Source: Sphingopyxis sp. USTB-05 (GTDB taxonomy: Bacteria > Pseudomonadota > Alphaproteobacteria > Sphingomonadales > Sphingomonadaceae). From it: a stretch of DNA of 64,000 bases. The translations under genes and the position numbers were made by a program. Within the stretch, counting starts at the first letter, position 1. Each line of letters begins with the position of its first letter. Positions 5,255 through 62,060 of the stretch are shown here, one piece after another. The notes beneath the pieces are model-generated. The model was not told where the DNA came from and did not search any database. It saw nothing but the letters and a program-made list of their open reading frames with translations. Where the stretch lies: NCBI RefSeq assembly GCF_023822045.1, contig NZ_CP084712.1, positions 4,399,001 through 4,463,000 on the forward strand, given 5' to 3'.

Positions 5255-6892
5255 ATGCCGCATGACACCAGCCTGATCGGAACCATCGTCGCCGGTCTGG
5301 GCGTGGCGTTCCTGATGGGGGCGTTGGCGCACCGGCTGAAAATTTCGCCGATCGCGGGCTATTTGCTCGCGGGGGTGATGGTCGGGCCGTTCACCCCGGG
5401 GTTCGTCGCCGACACTGGGCTCGCGCTGCAGCTCGCCGAGATCGGCGTGATCCTGCTGATGTTCGGGGTCGGCCTCCATTTTTCGCTGAAAGACCTGCTA
5501 TCGGTACGCAGGATCGCGGTGCCGGGGGCGATCGCGCAGATTGCGGTCGCGACCGCGCTTGGCATGATGCTCGGACTGTGGCTCGGCTGGTCGGTCGAGG
5601 GCAGCGTGGTGTTCGGGCTGGCACTGTCGGTGGCATCGACCGTCGTGCTGCTGCGCGCGCTGCAGGCGCGCGATATGGTCGAGACCGAAAAGGGGCGGAT
5701 CGCGGTCGGCTGGCTGATCGTCGAGGATCTGGTGATGGTGCTCGCGCTCGTGCTGTTGCCCGCGATGTTCGGCGATCGCGGCGATGAGGGGGGCTCAGCT
5801 GGGCTGCTCCAGTCGGCGGGCATCGTGCTCGTCAAGGTCGTCGGCTTCGGCGCCTTCATGTTCGTGATCGCGCGGCGCGTGCTGCCGTGGGTGCTCCACT
5901 GGGTCGCGCATTCGGGGTCGCGCGAGCTGTTCCGGCTTGCGGTGCTGGCGATCGCGCTGGGAGTCGCATTTGGGGCGGCGGTGATCTTCGACGTGAGCTT
6001 CGCGCTCGGCGCCTTCTTTGCGGGCATGATCCTTGGCGAGACGCAATTGTCGCGACGCGCGGCCGAAGAAACGCTGCCGCTGCGCGATGCCTTCGCGGTG
6101 CTCTTCTTCGTTTCGGTCGGCATGTTGTTCGATCCCAAGGTGCTGATCGAGCAACCGGGACCGGTGCTCGCGACGGTCGCGATCATTGTCGTCGGCAAAT
6201 CGGTCGCCGCTTTCGCGCTCGTCCGTGCCTTCGGTCACAATTCGGGGACCGCGCTGACGGTGTCGGTCAGCCTCGCGCAGATCGGCGAATTTTCGTTCAT
6301 CCTCGCGGGGCTCGGCGTCGGACTGAAAGTGCTGCCCGAGACGGGGCGCGACCTGATCCTTGCGGGGTCGCTCTTGTCGATCCTGTTCAACCCGATCCTC
6401 TTTTCGCTCGCGGTAAAGCGCATGCGCTCCGAAGAGCCGGAGGAAGTCGAGGCAGAGGGCGAGGATGCGCCCGCGCCGTGCAACGCCGGGGTCGTGCTGA
6501 TCGGCTATGGCCGCGTCGGCAGCCATATCGGCAGCCTGATCTGCGGGCGCGGTGAGGGGCTGACGGTGATCGAGGACCAGAAGGACATGGCGGCTTCGGC
6601 GCGCGAGGCTGGGGCGACGGTGATCGTTGGCGATGCGACGAAGGAAAGCATATTGCGACAGGCGGGGCTCGACACCGCGGCGACGCTGTTGATCGCGATT
6701 CCCGAAGGGGTCGAGGCGGGCGCAATCGTACGGCGCGCGCGGGCGATCAATCCGAAGCTGGTGATCGTTGCGCGCGCGCATTCGGACGAGGAAGTCGAGG
6801 ATCTGGTGCGCCGCGGCGCCGACCATGTCGTGATGGCCGAGCGCGAGACCGCATCGCGAATGGCCGAGCGGGCGATGCTGACTTTGGCTTGA
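5255..6892 (+). CDS. ybaL: YbaL-type monovalent cation:proton antiporter (CPA2, TrkA-N)
   Basis: A 545-residue protein whose N-terminus (ISPIAGYLLAGVMVGPFTPG, then GVILLMFGVGLHFSLKDL) closely follows the E. coli YbaL pattern. About twelve membrane segments cover residues 5-385, followed by a cytoplasmic TrkA-N nucleotide-binding domain (VVLIGYGRVGSHIG near 412, then VIVGDATKESILRQAG). The family exchanges K+ or Na+ for protons, gated by a bound nucleotide. It stands alone between an MHYT protein and recQ; a perfect hairpin abuts its start codon. Confidence 0.92.
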   Translation: MPHDTSLIGTIVAGLGVAFLMGALAHRLKISPIAGYLLAGVMVGPFTPGFVADTGLALQLAEIGVILLMFGVGLHFSLKDLLSVRRIAVPGAIAQIAVATALGMMLGLWLGWSVEGSVVFGLALSVASTVVLLRALQARDMVETEKGRIAVGWLIVEDLVMVLALVLLPAMFGDRGDEGGSAGLLQSAGIVLVKVVGFGAFMFVIARRVLPWVLHWVAHSGSRELFRLAVLAIALGVAFGAAVIFDVSFALGAFFAGMILGETQLSRRAAEETLPLRDAFAVLFFVSVGMLFDPKVLIEQPGPVLATVAIIVVGKSVAAFALVRAFGHNSGTALTVSVSLAQIGEFSFILAGLGVGLKVLPETGRDLILAGSLLSILFNPILFSLAVKRMRSEEPEEVEAEGEDAPAPCNAGVVLIGYGRVGSHIGSLICGRGEGLTVIEDQKDMAASAREAGATVIVGDATKESILRQAGLDTAATLLIAIPEGVEAGAIVRRARAINPKLVIVARAHSDEEVEDLVRRGADHVVMAERETASRMAERAMLTLA

Positions 6893-50915: not shown

Positions 50916-51689
50916 TCAGTTGAGCGTGACGAAGCGTGCCATGTCGTCGCGCGTCAGATAGCGGACATCGTCGAACGATGTGCTGTTGGTGAGCGTGTAA
51001 AAAGCGCGGGCCTTGGCGGCATCCATACCCATTTCGCGGTAGTAGCCGAGATATTCGGCATGGACCGGATCGTTCGCCGGATAGTCGTTCGCCTCGCGGC
51101 CATATTCGTCCGCCCAGCTATGGACGCCGAATTCCGCGTCGGGCGCGGCACGGCGGGTGACACCGGCGAGCCAGAGTTCCACCGCGCCCGAGCGGATCGA
51201 GCCGCCCGCGGGAACGACCGTTTCCATGCCCTGCCGGCGGACTGCGCGCGCCAGGATCAGGTTTGCTTCTTCATCCAGGCTGCCGGGGCAATCGACCATC
51301 TCGAGCCGCTTGAGCCCGGGGTATGCCGCCAGCATCGCCGCGAACTGGCGCGGCGTGGCGGAGGTGACGTCGCCGGCCATGCGCACGGTCGTGCTGTCGA
51401 TCACCGAAAAGGGGCCATAGGCCGCTTTCGCATGGCCGAGCGTCGCGAGCGTGGCGGCAGGCGCATAGCGGCGCGTGGAGGCGAAATCGGCGTCTTCGGC
51501 GAGCGCCTCGTCGCCCAGGAGTGCGGCGTCCTCGTCGATAAATTCAGCGCCGTCGTCTTCGCCTGCATCGTCATAGGTCCAGGTCACCGTCGTCGTGGTG
51601 ATCGTCATGACCTGCTGCGCATGCGCCGGCGCGAACGCCAGCACCGCCGCGAGTGCGGCGATGATGAGCGTACGGACGAAGGCGTGCAT
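50916..51689 (-). CDS. Exported COG3904-like (ClpP/crotonase-fold) hypothetical protein
   Basis: About 257 residues from ATG 51689 (ATG 51710 possible). A signal peptide (IIAALAAVLAFAPAHAQ) is followed by an acidic stretch (DDAGEDDGAEFIDEDAAL), then a ClpP-like core: LKRLEMVDCPGSLDEEANLI, VPAGGSIRSGAVELWLAG and a GVHSW motif. The pattern parallels periplasmic COG3904 proteins, with a Ser at the nucleophile position but without the flanking Cys usual there. Protease activity is possible, unproven. Confidence 0.65.
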   Translation of the reverse strand: MHAFVRTLIIAALAAVLAFAPAHAQQVMTITTTTVTWTYDDAGEDDGAEFIDEDAALLGDEALAEDADFASTRRYAPAATLATLGHAKAAYGPFSVIDSTTVRMAGDVTSATPRQFAAMLAAYPGLKRLEMVDCPGSLDEEANLILARAVRRQGMETVVPAGGSIRSGAVELWLAGVTRRAAPDAEFGVHSWADEYGREANDYPANDPVHAEYLGYYREMGMDAAKARAFYTLTNSTSFDDVRYLTRDDMARFVTLN

Positions 51690-51795
51690 GGAGGCGGACG
51701 GCGAAACCATGCGTCCGCCTTCGCGCGTGCGCGCCTATCAAATGGCGAACAGGCAACGTCAGCGCGCCGTTAACCCCGATATGGGACGGCCTGGA

Positions 51796-52452
51796 TCAAT
51801 CGCGGTCGGGCGCGCCAAGCGGGAAGTAGGGACGGTATGGCCGCGCCTCCTCGACGCACCGCGAAACGGTCGGATGCGCGAGCAGGCGAGCGCGATAGGC
51901 GCGCAAATTCTCGTACTTCTCCGGGATTTGATAGACCCAGTCGGCATAGAAAAGCGACGGCGCCGCGGCGCAATCGGCGAGCGTGAATCCATAGGGCGTC
52001 GCCCAGCCGCCGCCCGCCAGCTCCTTGTCGAGCCAGGCATAGATGGTATCGAGCCGCGCATGCGTTTGTTCGACGATGATCGGCAGATGATTTTCGGGCC
52101 CGCGCAACGCGTCGTTCACCACCTCCTGCATCCGGTTCATCACATGATGATCGAAGATGCGGTCGAACAGCCGGACCTTTAGCGCCGCGTCAAAATCCTG
52201 CGGGATCAGGCGCGGTTCGGGCACCAGATGGTCGAGATATTCGATGATGATCGACGATTCGAACCAGGGCACGCCGTCGTGGACGAGCAGCGGGAACTGT
52301 CCGACCGGCCAATGCGCCCGCAATTCGGGCATATGGTCGGGGAACGCCGGATCGACCGAGCGATAGTCGAATTCGATGCCCTTTTCGTAGAGCGCGATCA
52401 GCACCTTCCATGTGTAGGACGAAAAGGGGTGGCCATAATAGATCAGCATCAA
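51796..52452 (-). CDS. Glutathione S-transferase family protein
   Basis: A 218-residue GST: thioredoxin-like N-domain (IYYGHPFSSYTWKVLIALYEKG, then GQFPLLVHDGVPWFESSIIIEYLD with the Pro and Glu-Ser glutathione site) and an all-helical C-domain (TLADCAAAPSLFYADW). Probably conjugates or isomerises xenobiotics. It is the last gene of the TetR-headed cluster, overlapping the upstream membrane gene by four bases. Confidence 0.9.
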   Translation of the reverse strand: MMLIYYGHPFSSYTWKVLIALYEKGIEFDYRSVDPAFPDHMPELRAHWPVGQFPLLVHDGVPWFESSIIIEYLDHLVPEPRLIPQDFDAALKVRLFDRIFDHHVMNRMQEVVNDALRGPENHLPIIVEQTHARLDTIYAWLDKELAGGGWATPYGFTLADCAAAPSLFYADWVYQIPEKYENLRAYRARLLAHPTVSRCVEEARPYRPYFPLGAPDRD

Positions 52453-52910
52453 TTGCTATCCTTGCGCGTCAGCCAGGCGAGCGGCCAGCCGACGAAGAAG
52501 ATGTGCGGGAAAAGCGCGATCGCGCCCTTCGCAAGGTCGGTCGGCGGGAAGGGCAAGCCGAAGCGCAGCGGCAGCACGATCCCGTTCATGATGACATAGA
52601 GCAGCAGCCCGTAAAGCGTTCCGGTCAGCCACCAGGGCCACGCCGTCAGCGCGCTCCAGCGCCGCGCAACGAAAAACCATGTCGCGACCATCGCGCCCAT
52701 GATCGTATAATGGGTCGCGAGGCCCGCGATATCGCCGCCGATGCCCCAGCCGCGCGCGGCGTCGCCGAACGGCCCGCTCGCCACCGCATGGAGCATCGAA
52801 GAGACGGTACCGCCCTGCAACAGGCTCGACACCGACGCATAGACGATGTCGAGCGTGCCGCAGAGCACCCATGCGAAGAGCGCCGGGTTACGCCGCGCCA
52901 ACGGCTTCAC
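52449..52910 (-). CDS. Hypothetical membrane protein
   Basis: A 153-residue protein with four probable helices: PALFAWVLCGTLDIVYASVSS, THYTIMGAMVATWFFVARRW, WWLTGTLYGLLLYVIMNGIV and GAIALFPHIFFVGWPLAWLT. I cannot name the family; the layout resembles the YagU-type integral proteins. It overlaps the PhnB-like gene upstream by about 23 bases and the GST downstream by four, so it is inside the operon. Confidence 0.78.
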   Translation of the reverse strand: MKPLARRNPALFAWVLCGTLDIVYASVSSLLQGGTVSSMLHAVASGPFGDAARGWGIGGDIAGLATHYTIMGAMVATWFFVARRWSALTAWPWWLTGTLYGLLLYVIMNGIVLPLRFGLPFPPTDLAKGAIALFPHIFFVGWPLAWLTRKDSN

Positions 52911-53400
52911 CCCGCACCGCGGCCTCGATCTTCGCGATATCGATCTTCTGCATCGTCATCATCGCGTCGAACGCGCGCTTGGCGACCTCGGGATCGCCGC
53001 CCATCGTCGCGTCGGTCAGCACGCGCGGGGTGATCTGCCAGTTCAGGCCCCATTTGTCCTTGCACCAGCCGCACGCACTTTCCTTGCCGCCGTTGCCGAC
53101 GATCGCGTTCCAATAACGGTCGGTTTCCTCCTGCGTGTCGGTATGGACCTGGAAGGAAAAGGCCTCGCTGTGCGGAAAGATCGGGCCGCCGTTGAGCCCG
53201 ACGCACGCTATGCCCAGCACGGTAAAGTCGACCGTCAGCGCGTCGCCCTTTTTGCCGCCGGGAAAATCGCCGGGTGCTTTGTGAACGGCGCCCACGCTGC
53301 TGTTCGGGAAGGTCGCGGCATAGAAATTCGCCGCTTCCTCGGCATCCTTGTCGTACCAGAGGCAGAGGCTCACGGGTTGGCTCGTCGGTTGGTTCGTCAT
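52888..53400 (-). CDS. PhnB-like VOC protein
   Basis: A 170-residue protein from ATG 53400 (ribosome site AAAGGAGAG). LCLWYDKDAEEAANFYAATFPNS at the start and SACGWCKDKWGLNWQITPRVL near 110 are diagnostic of the PhnB/3-demethylubiquinone-methyltransferase-like VOC group, which despite the name are not methyltransferases. Ligand unknown. Belongs to the TetR-headed cluster. Confidence 0.9.
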   Translation of the reverse strand: MTNQPTSQPVSLCLWYDKDAEEAANFYAATFPNSSVGAVHKAPGDFPGGKKGDALTVDFTVLGIACVGLNGGPIFPHSEAFSFQVHTDTQEETDRYWNAIVGNGGKESACGWCKDKWGLNWQITPRVLTDATMGGDPEVAKRAFDAMMTMQKIDIAKIEAAVRGEAVGAA

Positions 53401-53402
53401 TT

Positions 53403-53813
53403 TCACTCTCCTTTGATGGGCCCGCCGATCGACCATTGATGGCCGAACGGATCCTTTATCTGGGCATAGCGGTCCCCCCAGAACATATTGTCGAGTGGCA
53501 TCACGACGCTTGCGCCCGCGGCAACCGCGCGTTCGAACCACGCGTCGGCATCGTCGACCTGCAGGTGCAGTGTCACGCCATCGGGCTTGCCCGACGGTTC
53601 GCTGACATATTCGGGAAATTCGTCGTGCATCATCAGCGACGCGCCGTTGATCGTCAGATGCGCGTGCATCAACCGCACGCCGTCGTCGGCGGGCACGCGC
53701 ACATTTTCAGTCGCGCCGAACGCCTTGATGTAAAAGTCGATGGCCTCACTCGCGCGCTTGTCGGCGATCGCGATATGCGGGGTGAGGCCGGTGGTCGGGC
53801 CCTGATTGTCCAT
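53403..53813 (-). CDS. VOC-family protein (YhcK/PhnB-type)
   Basis: A 136-residue protein from ATG 53813. It starts TPHIAIADKRASEAIDFYIKAFGATE and ends AQIKDPFGHQWSIGGPI, the form of single-chain glyoxalase-like proteins with two VOC half-sites. Metal ligands are plausible at His in TPHIAI and the acidic residue near MHAHL. Only two bases separate it from the next VOC gene. Confidence 0.9.
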   Translation of the reverse strand: MDNQGPTTGLTPHIAIADKRASEAIDFYIKAFGATENVRVPADDGVRLMHAHLTINGASLMMHDEFPEYVSEPSGKPDGVTLHLQVDDADAWFERAVAAGASVVMPLDNMFWGDRYAQIKDPFGHQWSIGGPIKGE

Positions 53814-53829
53814 CGTCGCTCTCCTTCGA

Positions 53830-54624
53830 TTATTTGCGCGGCCCGACGAAGCCGACCGGCGCACCCTGCGGATCGATGGCGTTCATCGCATATTCGCCGC
53901 CGGGGATTTCCATCGGTTCGTTGGTGATCGTGCCGCCGTTCGCGGTCACGGCGGCATGCGCGCGGTCGATATCGTCGACGCCGATATAGAAATTCCACAC
54001 CGGGACCGGATAACCTTCCATCAACGGCATCACCGCGCCCAGCCCGACCTCGCCGCGCTGGATGAAGCGGTACGCGCCAAGCTCGCCCATCGGCATCTCG
54101 CCTTCCTGCCCCCAGCCGAAATGCTCTTTATAGAAAGCGATCGCGGCGTCGGAATCGCTCGTCGCCAGCTCGTTCCAGCGCACATGCTGTGCCTCGGTCA
54201 CCGAAAAGACGTCGCTCTCCATGCCTTCCATTCCCTCGGGCGGCTTGGGGTCCATGACATAGAAGACTGCGCCCTGCGGGTCGGCGACCATTGCGATACG
54301 CCCGACCGGAATGTCCATCGCCGGCATATGCACGCTGCCGCCGTCGGCCTTGATCGCCGCAACCGCGGCATCGACATCGGCAACGTGGAGATAGCCGATC
54401 CAGATCGGGCGGGCGCCGCCCGCAATCATGTCGGCATTAAGAGCCAGCACGCCGCCGGCATTGCCGCCATCGCTGCGCCCGATCATGCGGTAATCGACGC
54501 CGCCCGCGGTCTGTTCGCCGGTGTCGGCGATCGTCCAGCCGACCACCGCGCCATAGAAGCGCGCCGCACCCGCAGGATCGGGAGTCATCAGCTCGTACCA
54601 GATGAAGTTGCTCGGCTCGCTCAT
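53830..54624 (-). CDS. Two-domain VOC-family protein
   Basis: A 264-residue protein from ATG 54624 (GAGGAGAGAGACG before it). Two VOC repeats: residues 1-125 (FIWYELMTPDPAGAARFYGAVVGW to AVFYVMDPKPP) and 140-264 (VRWNELATSDSDAAIAFYKEHFGW to APVGFVGPRK). It resembles CFP-30B-like and hydroxylase-associated VOC proteins. Both domains keep the VOC pattern; ligand unknown. Confidence 0.92.
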   Translation of the reverse strand: MSEPSNFIWYELMTPDPAGAARFYGAVVGWTIADTGEQTAGGVDYRMIGRSDGGNAGGVLALNADMIAGGARPIWIGYLHVADVDAAVAAIKADGGSVHMPAMDIPVGRIAMVADPQGAVFYVMDPKPPEGMEGMESDVFSVTEAQHVRWNELATSDSDAAIAFYKEHFGWGQEGEMPMGELGAYRFIQRGEVGLGAVMPLMEGYPVPVWNFYIGVDDIDRAHAAVTANGGTITNEPMEIPGGEYAMNAIDPQGAPVGFVGPRK

Positions 54625-54647
54625 CGTCTCTCTCCTCGATTTTTCTG

Positions 54648-55364
54648 TCAGTAAGTCAGGCTGGGGAACCAGTCGCCGCGCCCCTCGGGCGTCATGTCGA
54701 GCAGGCCCCAGAGCGGATCGACAAGGTCGCCCGCGCGGTGGTGCTGGCCGGGGTCTTCGGGTGCATAGGCCATCTCGCTCGCCCAGACGTGGCGGATCGC
54801 GTTGCCGTCCTTGCGGAAGACGTTGAAGATCGTCTCGTCCCAATTCTCGCCCGGCTTCATGCCATGCTCGGTGCGCTTGGCGTCGGACAGTTTCGACGTG
54901 TCGCCGAAATAATCCGCTGAATAACGTCCGTCGACGTCGGACAGAAAGGTCAGGTGCGGCCAGCGCCGGTCCTTCGCCCACGCCTCCAGCCGCGCGATCG
55001 GCGACTTGGCGACGACATAGAAGGGCGCGCGCTGCCCGATATGGCGTGCGCTGCCGTCGATCGCGTCGAGCATATGGGTGCAGCCGTTGCACGGCTTGTC
55101 GCGCTCGGCCCCGAACATGAAGCTTTGCATGATGATGCTTGGCTTACTCTCGAACAGCTCGGACAGCTTGATGCGCTCGGGACGCTGATATGCGCCGATC
55201 CGCTCGAATTCATAATCCTCGGGCACCTCGCCGCCCGGCGGCAGCGCGCGGCGCTTGGCGGCGACCGCCTCGATCTGACGGCGCAATGCGATTTCGTCGT
55301 CGAGCAGCGCGGCGCGCGCGGCGCGATAGGCGGGGCTTTCGTTCGGGAAGGACAGATGTTCCAT
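54648..55364 (-). CDS. DUF899-family thioredoxin-like protein
   Basis: A 238-residue protein from ATG 55364: LSFPNESPAYRAARAALLDDEIALRR, KLSELFESKPSIIMQSFMFG with a CNGC dithiol just after, and the ending HRAGDLVDPLWGLLDMTPEGRGDWFPSL. These are DUF899 hallmarks; the fold is thioredoxin-like and the CxxC may be redox active. It frequently accompanies stress or detoxification genes. Confidence 0.92.
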   Translation of the reverse strand: MEHLSFPNESPAYRAARAALLDDEIALRRQIEAVAAKRRALPPGGEVPEDYEFERIGAYQRPERIKLSELFESKPSIIMQSFMFGAERDKPCNGCTHMLDAIDGSARHIGQRAPFYVVAKSPIARLEAWAKDRRWPHLTFLSDVDGRYSADYFGDTSKLSDAKRTEHGMKPGENWDETIFNVFRKDGNAIRHVWASEMAYAPEDPGQHHRAGDLVDPLWGLLDMTPEGRGDWFPSLTY

Positions 55365-55387
55365 GGCCTGCTTCCTTCTGGTCGGGC

Positions 55388-55687
55388 TTATAGCCGGTGC
55401 AGCCGCAGCGGCTTTACATTTTCGCGCGCGATCAGCCCGCGCGCCTCGAGATCGAGCTGAACGCCCTTCAGCCACCAGCCCGCTTTCGCGCCGCCGGGAA
55501 ACAAATCCTCGGGCAGCAAAGGCAGCACGCGCGCCTTGACCTCGGCGACGGTGAGGCCGGGCTGAGCGCTGGGCACGGCCGCGAGCAGCGCGTCCTTCAT
55601 CGCGTCATATTTCGCCTTCTCGACGCGCACGACATGGCCGGGGCTCGTGAAATTGAGCATTTCGACGCGTTCGAGGCTTTTGCTCAT
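55388..55687 (-). CDS. Small hypothetical protein (DUF6958-like)
   Basis: A 99-residue protein, ERVEMLNFTSPGHVVRVEKAKYDAMKDALL (split by helix), then LPEDLFPGGAKAGWWLKGVQLDLEARGLI and a basic end. The AGWWxKxVQLDLEA pattern suggests a winged-helix-like family I associate tentatively with DUF6958. Its ATG overlaps the GFA stop by four bases. Confidence 0.75.
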   Translation of the reverse strand: MSKSLERVEMLNFTSPGHVVRVEKAKYDAMKDALLAAVPSAQPGLTVAEVKARVLPLLPEDLFPGGAKAGWWLKGVQLDLEARGLIARENVKPLRLHRL

Positions 55688-56235
55688 CGCGCATATCCCT
55701 TCGTCGCTTCGATCGGCGGGGCGCGAAAGCCCATCGCGATCCATGCGGTGAGCAAGCGCCACATGAACTTGCCCGAAGGCGATTTGTAATTGGGGATGTC
55801 GTCGGGCAACTCGACGCCTGCGGGCCGGTCGCCGACGATCGTCCGCATCTCGGCCGCCGGACGCTCGCCTTCGGGGATGCGGCCGGAATAGACGCTCAGC
55901 CAATGCCCCTTGGTAAATTCGAGCGCGATCGGCGCGTTGCAGCACCGCGCGACGAACCGCCGCGTCGGCGATTCGGGGGTCAGCCGGTGTTCGTCCAATT
56001 TGTCCGACCCCGACAGCCAGGCGAGGCGATCCTTGCGGACGAGCAGATAGGGTGTGCCCCCGTCGGCGCCGACCACCGCCGGCGCGCCGGGAAGCGCCGC
56101 GAAGGCGCGTCCCGCCGTCTGACAGCTCTGGCAATAACAGGTCGCCGCGACGATCGGCTTGCCGGTGAGTTCGAGCGTCACTGCGCCGCATTGGCAGGAC
56201 GCGGTGCGATGTTCGGGTGTTTGTGTATCGGCCAT
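55684..56235 (-). CDS. GFA-family (glutathione-dependent formaldehyde-activating-like) protein
   Basis: A 183-residue protein from ATG 56235. Zinc-binding Cys pattern of the Mss4-like fold: TASCQCGAVTLELTG, TCYCQSCQTAGRAF and FVARCCNAPIALEF. GFA proteins bind zinc and are proposed to aid S-hydroxymethylglutathione formation, although many members are of unknown role. It lies in the TetR-headed cluster with three GSTs. Confidence 0.88.
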   Translation of the reverse strand: MADTQTPEHRTASCQCGAVTLELTGKPIVAATCYCQSCQTAGRAFAALPGAPAVVGADGGTPYLLVRKDRLAWLSGSDKLDEHRLTPESPTRRFVARCCNAPIALEFTKGHWLSVYSGRIPEGERPAAEMRTIVGDRPAGVELPDDIPNYKSPSGKFMWRLLTAWIAMGFRAPPIEATKGYAR

Positions 56236-56248
56236 CGGTTCTCTTCCC

Positions 56249-56386
56249 AGCGATCCTCCCTGCCGCGAAGCGATGGGGAGGGGGACCATCCGAAGGATGG
56301 TGGAGGGGCGGCGACGTCGCGCCATCGCCCCTCCGTCAGCCATGCGGGCTGCCACCTCCCCATCGCTTCGCGACAAGGAGGAGCAA
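56249..56386. repeat. Inverted repeat, CTCCCCATCGCTTCGCG family
   Basis: Left arm tcctccctgccgcgaagcga, continuing tggggagg, and right arm cctccccatcgcttcgcgac with aaggagga, are complements around an 80-base centre that holds accatcc/ggatggt hairpin. It is the largest break (about 150 bases) in the minus-strand cluster, between DUF1428 and GFA genes. Confidence 0.82.
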
Positions 56387-56388
56387 AG

Positions 56389-57108
56389 TCAGGCCTCGAC
56401 GATCGGTGCGAAACCGCCGTAGATCATGCGCGCACCGTCGAACGGATTATTCTCCGGATCATGCTTCATCCGCTCGTCGGTCATCATCTTTTCCCAACCC
56501 GTCGTGCGCGCTTCCTTGTTGGGCCACTCGACCCAGCTATAGACGACGGTCTCGCCGTCCTTCTTGTGCGCGGCGCGGGCATAATCGGTGACCTTGCCGT
56601 CGGGAACATCGTCGCCCCACGCCTCGACGACGCGCGTCGCGCCATAGTCGCGGAACACTTCGGACGCCTTTTGCGCCAGCGCGCGATAGGCTTCCTTGTT
56701 GCCGTCGGGCACGGGGACGACATAGCCGTCGACATAGGAGGTCGAGCCTGCGGCCCGATCGTCGACGATCGAGTCGAAGCCGCCGATGATCATCCGCTTC
56801 GCGTCGAACGGCATCTCGCCGCCCATCGCTTCCATACGCGGGTCGCTCATCATCTTTTGGTTTGCGGCGTCGCGCGTCGCCCTGTCGGGATATTCGAACC
56901 AGCTGAACACGACGGTTTCGTCGGGCTTCGCCTGCACGGCGCCCTTGAAATCGTTGACCTTGCCGTCGGGCACGTCGTCGCCCCAGCATTCGACCATGCG
57001 CGCGACGCCGAATTCCTTGAACAGCGGCGCGGCGTCGGCGGCGTGCTTGCGATAGGCTTCCTTGTTGGCGGTCGGCACCGCGACCACAAATCCTTCTACA
57101 TAGGTCAT
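56389..57108 (-). CDS. Double DUF1428 protein
   Basis: A 239-residue protein from ATG 57108 (AAGGAGAGACAAG). It is two DUF1428 domains end to end: residues 1-115 (YVEGFVVAVPTANKEAYRKHA, ECWGDDVPDGKVNDF, MPFDAKRMIIGGF) and 125-239 (YVDGYVVPVPDGNKEAYRAL, EAWGDDVPDGKVTDY, NPFDGARMIYGGF). DUF1428 proteins such as YbaA are normally single-domain, about 117 residues, dimeric ferredoxin-like folds; this one is probably a covalent dimer. Confidence 0.9.
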   Translation of the reverse strand: MTYVEGFVVAVPTANKEAYRKHAADAAPLFKEFGVARMVECWGDDVPDGKVNDFKGAVQAKPDETVVFSWFEYPDRATRDAANQKMMSDPRMEAMGGEMPFDAKRMIIGGFDSIVDDRAAGSTSYVDGYVVPVPDGNKEAYRALAQKASEVFRDYGATRVVEAWGDDVPDGKVTDYARAAHKKDGETVVYSWVEWPNKEARTTGWEKMMTDERMKHDPENNPFDGARMIYGGFAPIVEA

Positions 57109-57137
57109 CTTGTCTCTCCTTGGGGGGTGGGAGGGTT

Positions 57138-57812
57138 TCAGGCGGCGGGCGGTCCCGCTTCTTCGCTGAAGGCGGCCAGCTGCGCGTCCATCGCGCGTTG
57201 AAAGGCGGGGCGGGCGAGGCAGCGATCGAGATAGGCCTGCAATCGCGGTTGCTCGGCGATCAAGCCCGCCTCGACGGCTTCGCGCAGCACCGTTGCCATC
57301 GCGATGTCGGCGACGGTGAATTCGCCTGTCAGATAGTGTTTGTCGCCGATCGCGTCGTTCAAGCGGCCGAGCCGACCCTGAATGAATTCGATCAGGCTCG
57401 GACGGCGCAGCTTCGCCCATTCCTCTTCGGTCGAGAAAATGTCGACATTGCCAAGCTCGAACAGCATCGGCTCGACGCTGTTATAGGCCGCGAACAGCCA
57501 GGCGAGTGTGTTGGCGCGCGCCTGCGGGTCGCGGGGCATCAGCCGCGCGTCCTTTTCGGCGAGGTGAAGCAGGATCGCGCCGCTCTCGAACAGGCGGATA
57601 CCGCCATCGTTGAGCACCGGGACCTGGCCCCACGGCTGGAACAGGAAATGGTCGGCGGGGCGGTTGATCGCGCTGATCAGATGTTCGGCATAGTCGAGTC
57701 CGATTTCCTCGCAGGCCCAGCGCGGGCGGAGGTCGCGGACATAACCGCGCGCGAAATCGGGGACCCAGTCAAAGGCAGTGACTTCGATCTTGCTGTCGGG
57801 GTTCACAGGCAT
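57138..57812 (-). CDS. Glutathione S-transferase family protein (paralogue A)
   Basis: A 224-residue GST from ATG 57812: VPDFARGYVRDLRPRWACEEIG, GQVPVLNDGGIRLFESGAILLHL (glutathione site Pro, Glu-Ser) and a helical C-domain with FTVADIAMATVLRE. Its neighbour at 57838 is a paralogue with the same order of motifs, so the pair arose by duplication. A GAGGAGAGA ribosome site is shared with other genes of the cluster. Confidence 0.9.
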   Translation of the reverse strand: MPVNPDSKIEVTAFDWVPDFARGYVRDLRPRWACEEIGLDYAEHLISAINRPADHFLFQPWGQVPVLNDGGIRLFESGAILLHLAEKDARLMPRDPQARANTLAWLFAAYNSVEPMLFELGNVDIFSTEEEWAKLRRPSLIEFIQGRLGRLNDAIGDKHYLTGEFTVADIAMATVLREAVEAGLIAEQPRLQAYLDRCLARPAFQRAMDAQLAAFSEEAGPPAA

Positions 57813-57837
57813 GGCGATCTCTCCTCGTTTGTGGGGT

Positions 57838-58512
57838 TCAGGCGGGTAGGGGTTCGCCGACTGCGCAGTCGGCCAGATGCGCCGCCATCGCGCTCTGAAA
57901 GGCCGGGCGGGCTTTTCCGCGCGCGACATAGGCGGTCAGATTGGGATGCGGCGCCAGCAATTCCGGATTTGCGTTGCGGAGCACATCGACCATCACGATG
58001 TCGCCGATCGAAAAATGATCTTCCAGCCAGTCGCGGTCGCCCAGCGCCTGCGACAATCGGGACAGCCGCTGCTCGGCAAAGGGCTTCGCCGCTTCGATCG
58101 CACCGGCGAGCCAGTCGGTGCCCTGTCCCTTGACGGTCAGCACGACCAGGGTCTGGATCATCGGTTCGACGCTGTTGAGCGCGGCGATCATCCAGCTGAT
58201 GGCGCGCCCGCGCCCTTTCGCGTCGCGTGGCAACAGACGCTCGTCGGCTTCGCCGATGTGGATCAGGATCGACCCCGTTTCGAACAGGGTCAGGTCGCCT
58301 TCCTTGTAAACCGGAACTTGCCCGAACGGCTGATCGGAAAGATAGGCCGGCGCCTTGTCCTCGAAAATGCCGCCGATCAGCCGCGTGCGATAGGGTTGGC
58401 CGATTTCGTCGAGCGCCCAGCGGACGCGGACGTCCTTGATACGGCCGTAAGCGAAATCCGGCACCGATCGGTAGGCAGTGATTTCGGGCATGGCCTCGGT
58501 TCGGGCGGACAT
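57838..58512 (-). CDS. Glutathione S-transferase family protein (paralogue B)
   Basis: A 224-residue GST from ATG 58512, preceded by GAGGAG. VPDFAYGRIKDVRVRWALDEIG and GQVPVYKEGDLTLFETGSILIHI align with paralogue A at 57138, including LNSVEPM in the middle. Ser/Thr difference at the glutathione site (ETGS versus ESGA) hints at diverged specificity. It lies two bases before the DUF4287 gene. Confidence 0.9.
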   Translation of the reverse strand: MSARTEAMPEITAYRSVPDFAYGRIKDVRVRWALDEIGQPYRTRLIGGIFEDKAPAYLSDQPFGQVPVYKEGDLTLFETGSILIHIGEADERLLPRDAKGRGRAISWMIAALNSVEPMIQTLVVLTVKGQGTDWLAGAIEAAKPFAEQRLSRLSQALGDRDWLEDHFSIGDIVMVDVLRNANPELLAPHPNLTAYVARGKARPAFQSAMAAHLADCAVGEPLPA

Positions 58513-58514
58513 GA

Positions 58515-58733
58515 TCAGCTCCTCTTCCCTTTGATATAGGCGACGATCGACATCGCGTGGCCGTGGCCCAGGTCGAAGTCGCTTTTCAGCCAGTCGACGA
58601 TCGCGGTTGCCTTGACGCCGGGGGCGAGGCCGCTTTCGTCGGCCAGGCCCTTGTCGATCGCGAAGCTTTTCAGTTCGTCGGCCGATTTGCCGGTCTTGGC
58701 TTCGACATTGTCGAGATAGGCCTGAAAGCTCAT
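58515..58733 (-). CDS. DUF4287-domain protein
   Basis: A 72-residue protein, MSFQAYLDNVEAKTGKSADE at the start and LGHGHAMSIVAYIKGKRS at the end, the standard DUF4287 pattern; predicted helical. Function unknown. It overlaps the DoxX-like gene by four bases. Many homologues are fused to or followed by DUF5655, absent here. Confidence 0.9.
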   Translation of the reverse strand: MSFQAYLDNVEAKTGKSADELKSFAIDKGLADESGLAPGVKATAIVDWLKSDFDLGHGHAMSIVAYIKGKRS

Positions 58734-59146
58734 GCGCTTGCTCCTGTCCGCAGCGGGATCAGCGCGCGGAGGCGCGGGTCGCGCAGCCACAGGCCGCCCC
58801 ACAGCATGATGCCCAGGTAAACGCCGAACAGGCTGTGGCTGAACAGCGGGCTGTTGATGCGCACATGCGTGCCGATCGCGCCGCCGAGATAGCCGGTTAT
58901 CAAGATCGCACCGAGGATCGCGGTGCGCGGCCAGATATAGAGCAGGGTCGGGATCAGTAGCAGTATGCCGAGCATCGTCATCGTCGGGACGTCGAGCGGC
59001 CATCCGAGATCGGGCGGGCTATATTTGATTGCGGTTTCGGGTGAGACCAGCTTGAGCCCCGCATCGAAGAGAAGGAAGAGGATCACCAGGCCACTCAAGA
59101 CATAGCCTGCGATCAACTGACCCTTGCCGGTTTGTTGGTCTGTCAT
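58730..59146 (-). CDS. DoxX-like membrane protein
   Basis: A 138-residue protein with four helices: IAGYVLSGLVILFLLFDAGLK, MTMLGILLLIPTLLYIW, AILGAILITGYLGGAIGTHV and SLFGVYLGIMLWGGLWLRD. The GYLGGAIGTHVR segment is typical of DoxX-like proteins in detoxification-type operons. It overlaps DUF4287 and follows the first VOC gene of the cluster. Confidence 0.87.
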   Translation of the reverse strand: MTDQQTGKGQLIAGYVLSGLVILFLLFDAGLKLVSPETAIKYSPPDLGWPLDVPTMTMLGILLLIPTLLYIWPRTAILGAILITGYLGGAIGTHVRINSPLFSHSLFGVYLGIMLWGGLWLRDPRLRALIPLRTGASA

Positions 59147-59170
59147 CCTCTTCCTCCTCCCTTTTTCATT

Positions 59171-59605
59171 TTATGCGTTGGCTTCGGCGGGTTCGCCGGC
59201 GGGGATCGCGGTGGGGTCCATCCACATCACTTCCCAGATATGGCCGTCGGGATCTTCGAAGCTGCGGCCGTACATGAAGCCATAATCCTGTGTCGGGGTC
59301 GGGTCGGCCTTGCCGCCCGCCTTGACTGCCTTGTCGACCTGTCCGTCGACGGCTTCGCGGCTGTCGGCTGAAACGCAGATCAGGACCTGCGCGGTGCTGT
59401 GTGCGTCGGGGATCGTCTTCGACGTGAAGGTCGCCCATTTTTCATGCGTCAGCAGCATGACGTGGATCGATCCTTCCTCGACCACCATGCAGGCCGCGGT
59501 GTCGTCGGTGAAGGCGGGGTTGTTCGCCGCGCCGACCGCCTCGTAAAAGGCCTTCGACTTTTCAAGGTCGGTGACCGGCAGGTTCACGAAAATCATCTGG
59601 GGCAT
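59171..59605 (-). CDS. VOC-family (glyoxalase-like) protein
   Basis: A 144-residue protein from ATG 59605 (AAGGAGAGAGTAG). IFVNLPVTDLEKSKAFYEAVGAAN at the start and FEDPDGHIWEVMWMDPTAIP at the end; this subgroup (glyoxalase superfamily, lactoylglutathione-lyase-like) is common in alphaproteobacteria. It is the first structural gene after the TetR repressor, 71 bases away, so probably its closest target. Confidence 0.9.
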   Translation of the reverse strand: MPQMIFVNLPVTDLEKSKAFYEAVGAANNPAFTDDTAACMVVEEGSIHVMLLTHEKWATFTSKTIPDAHSTAQVLICVSADSREAVDGQVDKAVKAGGKADPTPTQDYGFMYGRSFEDPDGHIWEVMWMDPTAIPAGEPAEANA

Positions 59606-59676
59606 CTACTCTCTCCTTGGGGGTGGTGATTATTGAAGTCAGCGCGCGCGGCGCGCGGCGGCAATTACGCGCCGCG

Positions 59677-60366
59677 TCATGACGCGCCTCCGCTGCCGAA
59701 CAGCATCCGCACATAACGCTTCAAATGGGTGACGGTGCCGCGCGCAATCGCCGGATCGTTCGTCGTTTTCGCCAGGACGAAGGCGCCCTGCAGCACCGAC
59801 TGGACATGTTGGGCAAGGCCAAGTGCGGTGATATCCTCGGGCACCCCGTAAACATCCATCGCGGCCTGAATGTCGGGGGCGAGCGCCTGGCAATAGGCGT
59901 TGATGCTCGCTTCGCACGCGGCGCGGATGCGGTCGTTGGTCGCATAGGCTTCCTGCACCATCGTGCCGACGAAGCAGGTATAATCCTCAGTCGGTCCGTC
60001 GAGCATCGACAGGCGGAAATCGATATGGCCGAGCAGGCGGTCGAGCGGATCGTCCAGCTTCACATGCGGCGCCAGTTCGAACATCGGTCGCGCACGCTCG
60101 GTCCAGCCCTCTGCCGCCGCGATCGCCAGTTCTTCCTTCGAAGCGAAGTGATGGAAAAAGGCGCCCTTGGTCACGCCCGCGGCGGCGCAGATCTGGTCGA
60201 CCGTCGTCGCCGAATAGCCCTGCTTGCGTACGGTGGCATGCGCCGCCGCGATCAGCCGCGCCCGCGCGCTGCCCCGCGGGGCGCGCACTCCCGCAGTACC
60301 GCCGCCCGCCGGGGGGACATCGCGGGCGGCGGCTGCGGGGATCGAGGGGGGCTGATTCGTCGTCAT
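59677..60366 (-). CDS. TetR-family transcriptional repressor
   Basis: A 229-residue TetR protein. After a Pro/Ala-rich lead, the HTH reads ARARLIAAAHATVRKQGYSA, TTVDQICAAAGVTKGAFFHHFASKEELA; the ligand domain is variable, with ACEASINAYCQALAP. I use ATG 60366; ATG 60378 is in frame but falls inside the operator. Such regulators release DNA on binding a small toxic or signalling compound. It heads the minus-strand cluster that follows. Confidence 0.9.
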   Translation of the reverse strand: MTTNQPPSIPAAAARDVPPAGGGTAGVRAPRGSARARLIAAAHATVRKQGYSATTVDQICAAAGVTKGAFFHHFASKEELAIAAAEGWTERARPMFELAPHVKLDDPLDRLLGHIDFRLSMLDGPTEDYTCFVGTMVQEAYATNDRIRAACEASINAYCQALAPDIQAAMDVYGVPEDITALGLAQHVQSVLQGAFVLAKTTNDPAIARGTVTHLKRYVRMLFGSGGAS

Positions 60367-60374
60367 GCGAATCG

Positions 60375-60396
60375 ACATACCGACTAGTTGGTATGT
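60375..60396. promoter_or_regulatory. TetR operator (22-base near-perfect palindrome)
   Basis: ACATACC and GGTATGT flank a GACTAGTT centre; only one base pair of the 22 breaks symmetry. It lies 9 bases upstream of the preferred TetR start, the normal site for autoregulation, and would control every gene co-transcribed with tetR. Confidence 0.85.
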
Positions 60397-60433
60397 TGTC
60401 AAATATGCAATCGGGGTTACGCTCCGCGGCACC

Positions 60434-60551: not shown

Positions 60552-62060
60552 ATGGTCGCAGTCGTTTCCACTGTCGCGTATCTCGGCATCGAAGCCCGCG
60601 GGGTTGAGGTGCAGTGCCAGGTCACGCCCGGCGTTCCGCGATTCGTCGTCGTCGGCCTTCCCGACAAGGCGGTGGGCGAAAGCCGCGAACGCGTCCGCGC
60701 CGCCATCGCCGCGATCGGCCTCTCGCTCCCGCCCAAGGTCATCACGGTCAACCTGTCACCCGCCGACCTGCCCAAGGAAGGTTCCCACTACGACCTTCCG
60801 ATCGCATTGGCCTTGCTCGGTGCGATGGGGGTGATCGATGCGGAAACGCTGGCTTCCTATGTGGTCGTCGGCGAACTCGGGCTCGATGGACGCGTCGCGG
60901 CGTCGCCCGGCGTCTTGCTAGCCGCGATCCACGCCGGCAGCGCCGAGCGCGGGCTGATCTGCCCCGCGGTCCAGGGCCCCGAAGCGGCGTGGGCGGGCAA
61001 TGTCGAGGTGCTTGGCGCGCCCGACCTCCTGTCGCTGCTCAACCATTTCAGGGGTAATGCCCTGCTAGCACCGCCGGTGCCTGGAGAGGTGGAGATTCCG
61101 GCGCGCGCGGCTGACCTCCGTCAGGTAAAGGGGCAGGAGACCGCAAAGCGCGCGCTCGAGATCGCCGCGGCGGGCGCGCATAATCTGATGATGTCGGGAC
61201 CGCCGGGCGCGGGCAAGTCGCTGATGGCGGCGTGCATGCCGGGCATCCTTCCCGACCTCTCGCCCGCCGAGGCACTCGAAGTGTCCATGATTGCGTCGGT
61301 TGCCGGCGGGCTTGAAGGCGGTGGCCTGATCCGCGCGCGGCCGTTTCGTAGCCCCCATCATTCGGCATCGATGCCCGCGCTCATCGGCGGCGGGCTGCGC
61401 GTGCGGCCGGGTGAGGTCAGCCTCGCGCACCTGGGTGTGCTGTTCCTCGACGAACTGCCGGAATTCCAGCGCGGCGTCCTCGATTCGCTGCGCCAACCGC
61501 TCGAAACGGGCGAGGTCAGCGTTGCGCGCGCGAACGCGCATGTGACCTTTCCCGCGCGCGTTCAGTTAGTGGCGGCGATGAACCCCTGCCGGTGCGGTCA
61601 TCTGGGCGACCCGGCGCTTGCGTGCAGCCGCGCACCGCGCTGCGCCGCCGATTATCAGGCAAAGCTGTCGGGCCCCCTGCTCGATCGCATCGACCTGCAC
61701 GTCGAAGTGCAGACGGTGAGCGCCGCCGACCTGGTCCTGCCGCCGCCCGCCGAGGGCAGCGCCGAAGTCGCGGCTCGCGTCGCGGCGGCGCGAGCGGTGC
61801 AGACCGCACGCTATGCGGAGCACAAGGCGCGGACTAACGCCGAGATCGACGGCGAACTGCTCGAAGCGGTTGCGACCCCTGACGAGGCAGGGCGCAAGCT
61901 GCTCGCACAGGCGGCCGAAGCGATGCGGCTGTCGGCGCGCGGCTATACGCGAATCCTGCGCGTGGCGCGCACCATCGCTGATCTGGCGGGCAGTCAGGAT
62001 ATCGGGCGCATCCATATCGCCGAGGCGCTCAGCTATCGCCGGCAGGCACCGAGGAACTGA
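60552..62060 (+). CDS. comM: YifB/ComM-family Mg-chelatase-like AAA ATPase
   Basis: A 502-residue ATPase: VAVVSTVAYLGIEARGVEVQ, VVVGLPDKAVGESRERVRAA, Walker A GPPGAGKS (near 216), Walker B VLFLDELPEF and the C-terminal helical domain LSARGYTRILRVARTIADLAG. ComM promotes branch migration in recombination, notably during natural transformation. Full family length. It is coupled to the DUF1905 gene by one base. Confidence 0.93.
   Translation: MVAVVSTVAYLGIEARGVEVQCQVTPGVPRFVVVGLPDKAVGESRERVRAAIAAIGLSLPPKVITVNLSPADLPKEGSHYDLPIALALLGAMGVIDAETLASYVVVGELGLDGRVAASPGVLLAAIHAGSAERGLICPAVQGPEAAWAGNVEVLGAPDLLSLLNHFRGNALLAPPVPGEVEIPARAADLRQVKGQETAKRALEIAAAGAHNLMMSGPPGAGKSLMAACMPGILPDLSPAEALEVSMIASVAGGLEGGGLIRARPFRSPHHSASMPALIGGGLRVRPGEVSLAHLGVLFLDELPEFQRGVLDSLRQPLETGEVSVARANAHVTFPARVQLVAAMNPCRCGHLGDPALACSRAPRCAADYQAKLSGPLLDRIDLHVEVQTVSAADLVLPPPAEGSAEVAARVAAARAVQTARYAEHKARTNAEIDGELLEAVATPDEAGRKLLAQAAEAMRLSARGYTRILRVARTIADLAGSQDIGRIHIAEALSYRRQAPRN

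Follow-up and report, generated by a model that had tools for sequence, protein, structure and literature searches.

A conserved TetR-headed gene row with a putative shared operator in Sphingopyxis

Does a long row of genes for small enzymes behind a TetR-type regulator act as one unit and, if so, against what? The question is raised by Sphingopyxis sp. USTB-05, whose genome is a single contig (NZ_CP084712.1) of 4,679,489 bases. We analysed 64,000 nucleotides of it (positions 4,399,001 to 4,463,000 of the forward strand; the window), in which a tetR gene is followed head to tail by fourteen genes on the minus strand, from 60366 down to 51796. A preliminary description of the window had read this row as one inducible operon handling a reactive electrophile. 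Comparison with relatives shows a shared gene order, a single putative operator per genome beside tetR, overlap of this operator with the presumed promoter, and an invariant pair of residues, Cys131 and Lys200, in the regulator. That this is one conserved TetR-headed unit with a shared operator is well supported on these sequence grounds, while the electrophile part of the earlier reading is argued by likeness. On that analogy, defence against electrophiles or reactive chlorine is the likeliest role, and we place moderate confidence in it.

A fixed order with optional slots

Eighty loci were kept from 565 relatives, listed with named records, and 30 of them (L032-L059, L070, L071) form a close Sphingopyxis set. 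Gene order and presence were counted in 25 of these; the other five were dropped, as they do not extend to the downstream marker gene. By the bit thresholds that we set, four genes occur in all 25 spanned clusters: those for the glutathione transferase (GST) GSTb, the double DUF1428 protein, the double VOC protein and the PhnB-like protein. The others vary, from VOC1 (24 clusters), GSTc (23), DUF4287 (20), VOC3 (18), the membrane protein Mem (16) and DoxX (14) to GFA (11), DUF6958 (10), DUF899 (9) and GSTa (4). Only 2 of 1213 gene pairs stand in the opposite order, in L042 and L047. None of the 25 relatives carries all fourteen genes together. Presence counts and kept order therefore describe a row of fixed order with optional slots, of which the window holds a rich version. 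The conserved neighbourhood predicted for related genomes was found, with the same families in the same sequence, and its order exceeds chance; the exact set of fourteen is not fixed and represents one form of a modular cluster.

A survey of 80 Sphingopyxis genomes gives the same linkage. A tetR match is present in 73 of them. DUF1428 lies on the contig and strand of tetR, at most 4748 bp away, in 69 of the 72 genomes with both, and for PhnB the figure is 67 of 72, with a distance of up to 9041 bp; the remaining three and five cases are on a different contig from tetR.

Fifty of the 80 loci fall outside the close set (including L064 and L073, which are titled Sphingopyxis), and a gene run was obtained in 44; the gene finder missed tetR in L081, L097, L098, L106, L109 and L110, and these 6 of the 80 loci were dropped from the count. 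Up to five genes behind each distant tetR were scanned with Pfam in two batches of 67 and 90 proteins, one protein being able to match several families. The scan returned PF00903 (20 and 16 in the two batches), PF06983 (10 and 23), DUF1428 (14 and 8), AHSA1 (6 and 21) and GST_N (10 and 6). Transporter parts, aminotransferases and hydrolases also occur behind tetR at these loci, some of them probably past the end of the unit.

One operator over the tetR promoter

Upstream of tetR, on the minus strand, lies a conserved 22-bp palindrome, ACATACCAACTAGTCGGTATGT (60375-60396), which we take as the putative operator. It abuts a presumed -35 hexamer, TTGACA (60397-60402), and overlaps a presumed -10 hexamer, TATGTC (60374-60379), which matches TATAAT at three of six positions. 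The palindrome thus occupies the 17-nt spacer between the two. With up to four mismatches, the pattern ACATACCNACNNGTNGGTATGT is found upstream of tetR in 79 of the 80 loci: at most one mismatch in 29 of 30 loci of the Sphingopyxis set, at most four in 50 of 50 others. The one locus without it, L046, is truncated where its contig stops. None of 1518 control windows came below five mismatches.

The exact operator core occurs once in 69 of the 80 Sphingopyxis genomes and is absent from 11, and the reversed control is absent from all 80. Every one of the 69 sites stands between -23 and 73 bp from the tetR match; tetR genomes without the exact core are G031, G044, G073 and G075. A regulon beyond the cluster was considered and rejected: no second site was found in the USTB-05 genome at up to three mismatches, nor in the 80 genomes with the exact core, which is the range the search covered.

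The promoter arrangement recurs among the 79 loci. Within 2 nt of its place, the -35 hexamer is matched at six of six positions in 52 and at five or more in 68, and an in-frame start codon follows the operator at 5-9 nt in 68. In the window the tetR ATG lies only 7 nt past the presumed -10, so the message may be leaderless. An in-frame ATG in the last half of the operator (60375-60378 in the window, with 60378 as the alternative tetR start) is present in most Sphingopyxis loci.

Encoded proteins

The layout in the preliminary description holds. All 15 open reading frames are present, with gaps from tetR onward of 71, 24, -4, 2, 25, 29, 153, -4, 23, 23, 16, 2, -23 and -1 bp, in line with the overlaps and short gaps, the largest about 150 bases, that it had reported. 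The families it named match the Pfam assignments, the membrane protein alone being without a Pfam match. A codon-usage gene finder also called 15 genes in the stretch, all on the minus strand; this is a weak check, because its training set was the same genes plus ComM.

Behind tetR (59677-60366), and like it on the minus strand, come VOC1, a single glyoxalase/bleomycin-resistance domain (59171-59605; PF00903, Glyoxalase), a DoxX-like membrane protein (58730-59146; PF13564, DoxX_2) and a DUF4287 protein of 72 residues (58515-58733; PF14117). An alpha/beta-hydrolase gene (cluster c9) that is not in the window is inserted in the row in 17 loci, in L032 behind DUF4287 (5756-6685). GSTa (57838-58512; PF02798) and GSTb (57138-57812; PF02798, PF00043) precede the double DUF1428 protein (56389-57108; PF07237 in two stretches). 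The latter carries its two domains in tandem here, and a single-domain form of about 115-130 residues is found in many distant relatives. Past a palindromic repeat (56236-56388) stand the GFA-family protein (55684-56235; PF04828), the DUF6958 protein (55388-55687; PF22278) and the DUF899 protein (54648-55364; PF05988), in whose translation the CxxC motif reported earlier is present. The row continues with the two-domain VOC protein (53830-54624; PF00903 in two stretches), VOC3 with a single glyoxalase domain (53403-53813; PF00903) and the PhnB-like protein of the 3-dmu-9_3-mt family (52888-53400; PF06983), and ends with Mem (52449-52910) and GSTc (51796-52449; PF13417, PF13410).

The nearest structures in the Protein Data Bank (PDB) are 4gym for VOC1, 2okq (E. 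coli YbaA) for the DUF1428 protein and 3oxh (Rv0577) for the double VOC protein, with 2ycd and 3lq7 as best matches for GSTb; they say nothing certain about substrates. A sequence search of the PDB gave no match for the DUF4287 or DUF899 protein. By family membership, GFA and the glutathione transferases point to glutathione chemistry.

The row is flanked by ComM (60552-62060, plus strand) and by a protein of 264 residues (50916-51710, minus strand) that matches no Pfam or NCBIfam family. In the Sphingopyxis set the gene for this protein comes after the cluster, but in L060, L062, L063, L064 and L101 it lies between ComM and tetR.

A NemR-like switch and its alternatives

The 229-residue regulator has a TetR_N DNA-binding domain and the TetR fold (PF00440, PF16925). 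Its alignment with the NemR structure 4yze is full length (profile positions 4-191, E 4.3e-14), and NemR Cys106 and Lys175 align with Cys131 and Lys200, both invariant in 50 of 50 distant rows; residue numbers were counted by us from the alignment. In a protein search that scored 7999 candidates, public sources call relatives of the regulator 'repressor of nem operon' (among the best 120 of 5989 matches). NemR likeness and this naming support electrophile handling. A chlorine-sensing TetR protein, NieR, is known from Agrobacterium; a literature search for it gave nothing useful.

We consider it fairly probable that the row is a NemR-like operon that represses itself, is induced under thiol-reactive stress and makes glutathione- and VOC-type enzymes. 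Gene spacing, order and the single operator agree with one transcript from the tetR promoter. By binding the single 22-bp palindrome, which covers the -10 and spacer of the tetR promoter, TetR would repress its own gene together with the rest of the row. Modification of Cys131 by a thiol-reactive compound (such as reactive chlorine, a quinone or an electrophilic carbonyl), or binding of a ligand nearby, would make the repressor release the operator. Glutathione transferases, VOC/glyoxalase-fold, PhnB-like, DUF1428 and accessory proteins would then be produced, neutralising the compound and repairing the damage it causes. Repression, the thiol switch and the single transcript are what we infer from sequence here.

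Several observations weigh against this proposal, and some concern the transcript. The presumed tetR promoter escaped a generic promoter scan, because its -10 fails the rule of the scan. Internal promoters and terminators were sought and discarded as a signal either way (2 promoter-like sites against 1.4 expected, 10 terminator-like against 7.3). The 153-bp gap between DUF1428 and GFA is, by genome copies and folding energy, a dispersed palindromic repeat of about 130 bp rather than plain spacer. Four other places in the genome match it at 82-85% over at least 128 bp, with weaker ones besides; one copy lies just outside the window (C1:4396704-4396836). Its folding energy is -108.5 kcal/mol, and shuffled sequences average -66.8 (z -9.7). 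The repeat may have no effect on transcription towards GFA, or may weaken or terminate it, and it could interrupt the transcript.

Natural deletions bear on the same point. There is no tetR match in seven of the 80 genomes. G012 and G074 also lack DUF1428 and PhnB; in G041 and G050 the contig stops at DUF1428, so that their tetR may be lost to assembly; G065 has a DUF1428 fragment and PhnB. G066 (L116) carries a deletion from tetR to double VOC, which leaves ComM adjoining VOC3-PhnB-GSTc, and G079 (L114, 5951-7777) keeps a three-gene remnant of PhnB, GST and DUF1428. In G051 tetR is present and DUF1428 with the middle of the row is missing. Cluster parts can therefore persist alone, and tight co-loss of tetR and cluster was rejected on account of G066 and G079.

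It is possible, then, that TetR controls the promoter-proximal genes only, that GFA to GSTc use promoters of their own, and that shared order reflects common ancestry only. The strong hairpin at the largest gap and the distal genes that persist without a head in G066 and G079 speak for this. We nevertheless regard it as unlikely, since the genes past the repeat are spaced at -23 to 23 bp, PhnB, DUF1428 and double VOC come from both sides of the repeat and occur in 25 of 25 clusters, and distant loci have the same families directly behind tetR. The strong variation in presence and absence, with the deletions in G051 and G066, would also suit a loose genomic island, in which gain and loss had brought together unrelated small stress and resistance genes that serve no common function. 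Fixed order and strand, four genes in every cluster, one conserved operator and a regulator that is followed by the same few families in the more distant loci too make such an island very improbable.

The remaining difficulties for the NemR-like operon concern the sensor. The fold rank is tied with many TetR proteins, and the TetR structures 3qbm, 3dpj and 3bru outscore 4yze. Cys21 and Cys116 of NemR, reported to be necessary for the response to electrophiles and glyoxals (PMC5297802), have no counterpart, the positions being Val46 and Tyr141. The equivalent cysteine occurs in the three other PDB relatives of the alignment, two of them without the lysine, so Cys131 may be structural. The Cys-Lys bond of NemR is itself disputed, as a NemR-based probe responded without the lysine. 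The regulator is patchy in the Sphingomonadaceae, in 29 of 298 genomes and 20 of 96 genera. In NCBIfam it scores closer to AcuR and ScbR, though under the cut-off.

The last point raises the question of whether TetR is an AcuR-like ligand sensor, with a small, non-covalently bound metabolite or pollutant as inducer and an operon that serves one compound. Over its full length the regulator has AcuR as its second-best match in NCBIfam (E 1.4e-12), at 47.4 bits against a cut-off of 247 that is not reached. The acuR-acuI-dddL operon of R. sphaeroides is likewise regulator-headed with an operator over the promoter, and rapid amplification of cDNA ends placed its transcript start at the start codon, a leaderless message (PMC3017554); the ATG 7 nt past the presumed -10 recalls this. 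The AcuR operator given there, TAATAGAC-n6-GTCTATTA (PMC3017554), is unlike ACATACCNACNNGTNGGTATGT, which reads ACATACC-n8-GGTATGT here. There is no acuI and no dddL or other lyase gene in the cluster, and gene content varies widely while the effector domain of the regulator is conserved. On balance we doubt a single-compound ligand sensor of this kind.

How, then, does the proposed NemR-like operon compare with described systems? ECF-sigma-linked (extracytoplasmic function) VOC/DoxX/DGPF stress loci hold similar families of small proteins; by Pfam there is no sigma factor in the cluster. In the E. coli nemRA-gloA operon a cysteine-containing TetR repressor comes first, followed by electrophile-detoxifying genes including a glyoxalase (PMC5297802). 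The tetR-first arrangement and the invariant Cys106/Lys175 counterparts are shared; the fourteen genes here differ in having no NemA-type flavin reductase among them. The alt clusters resemble the row by description: the source describes a TetR-family regulator, AltR, with a multi-gene, order-variable cluster against thiol-reactive allicin/thiosulfinate, names altA, B, C, E, I, J and gor, and has no 'glyoxalase' in its main text (PMC12306174).

The protein families and the regulator class are already known; in the literature searched, in which few subscription journals were covered, we found no description of the conserved modular operon with its operator. Within this scope no publication joined DUF1428 with DUF899, or DUF1428 with TetR and glyoxalase, and none was found for 'repressor of nem operon' or for YbaA with nemA. 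Work on DUF1428, judged by title or abstract, held nothing on such an operon, and searches for Sphingopyxis, DUF899 or DoxX with TetR and glyoxalase returned unrelated work only.

A broader reading is possible and more tentative than the operon itself. A distinct subfamily of NemR-like sensors, keeping the Cys106-Lys175 pair without Cys21/Cys116 and having its own operator ACATACCNACNNGTNGGTATGT, may run a widespread plug-in detoxification operon, in which switch, operator and order are fixed and modules such as VOC, GST, AHSA1, DUF1428, DUF899, DUF4287, DUF6958 and GFA come and go. The analysis assigns a single predicted switch, whose operator is exact, to DUF1428, DUF899, DUF4287, DUF6958 and uncharacterised VOC and PhnB-like proteins; a common role of these proteins could be tested with a single tetR deletion or inducer screen. 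Regulators that have the NemR Cys-Lys pair but not its other cysteines also form a natural series, which could help with the disputed mechanism of NemR sensing. If the plug-in operon is real, five DUF families would have a common and testable part in protection from thiol-reactive compounds.

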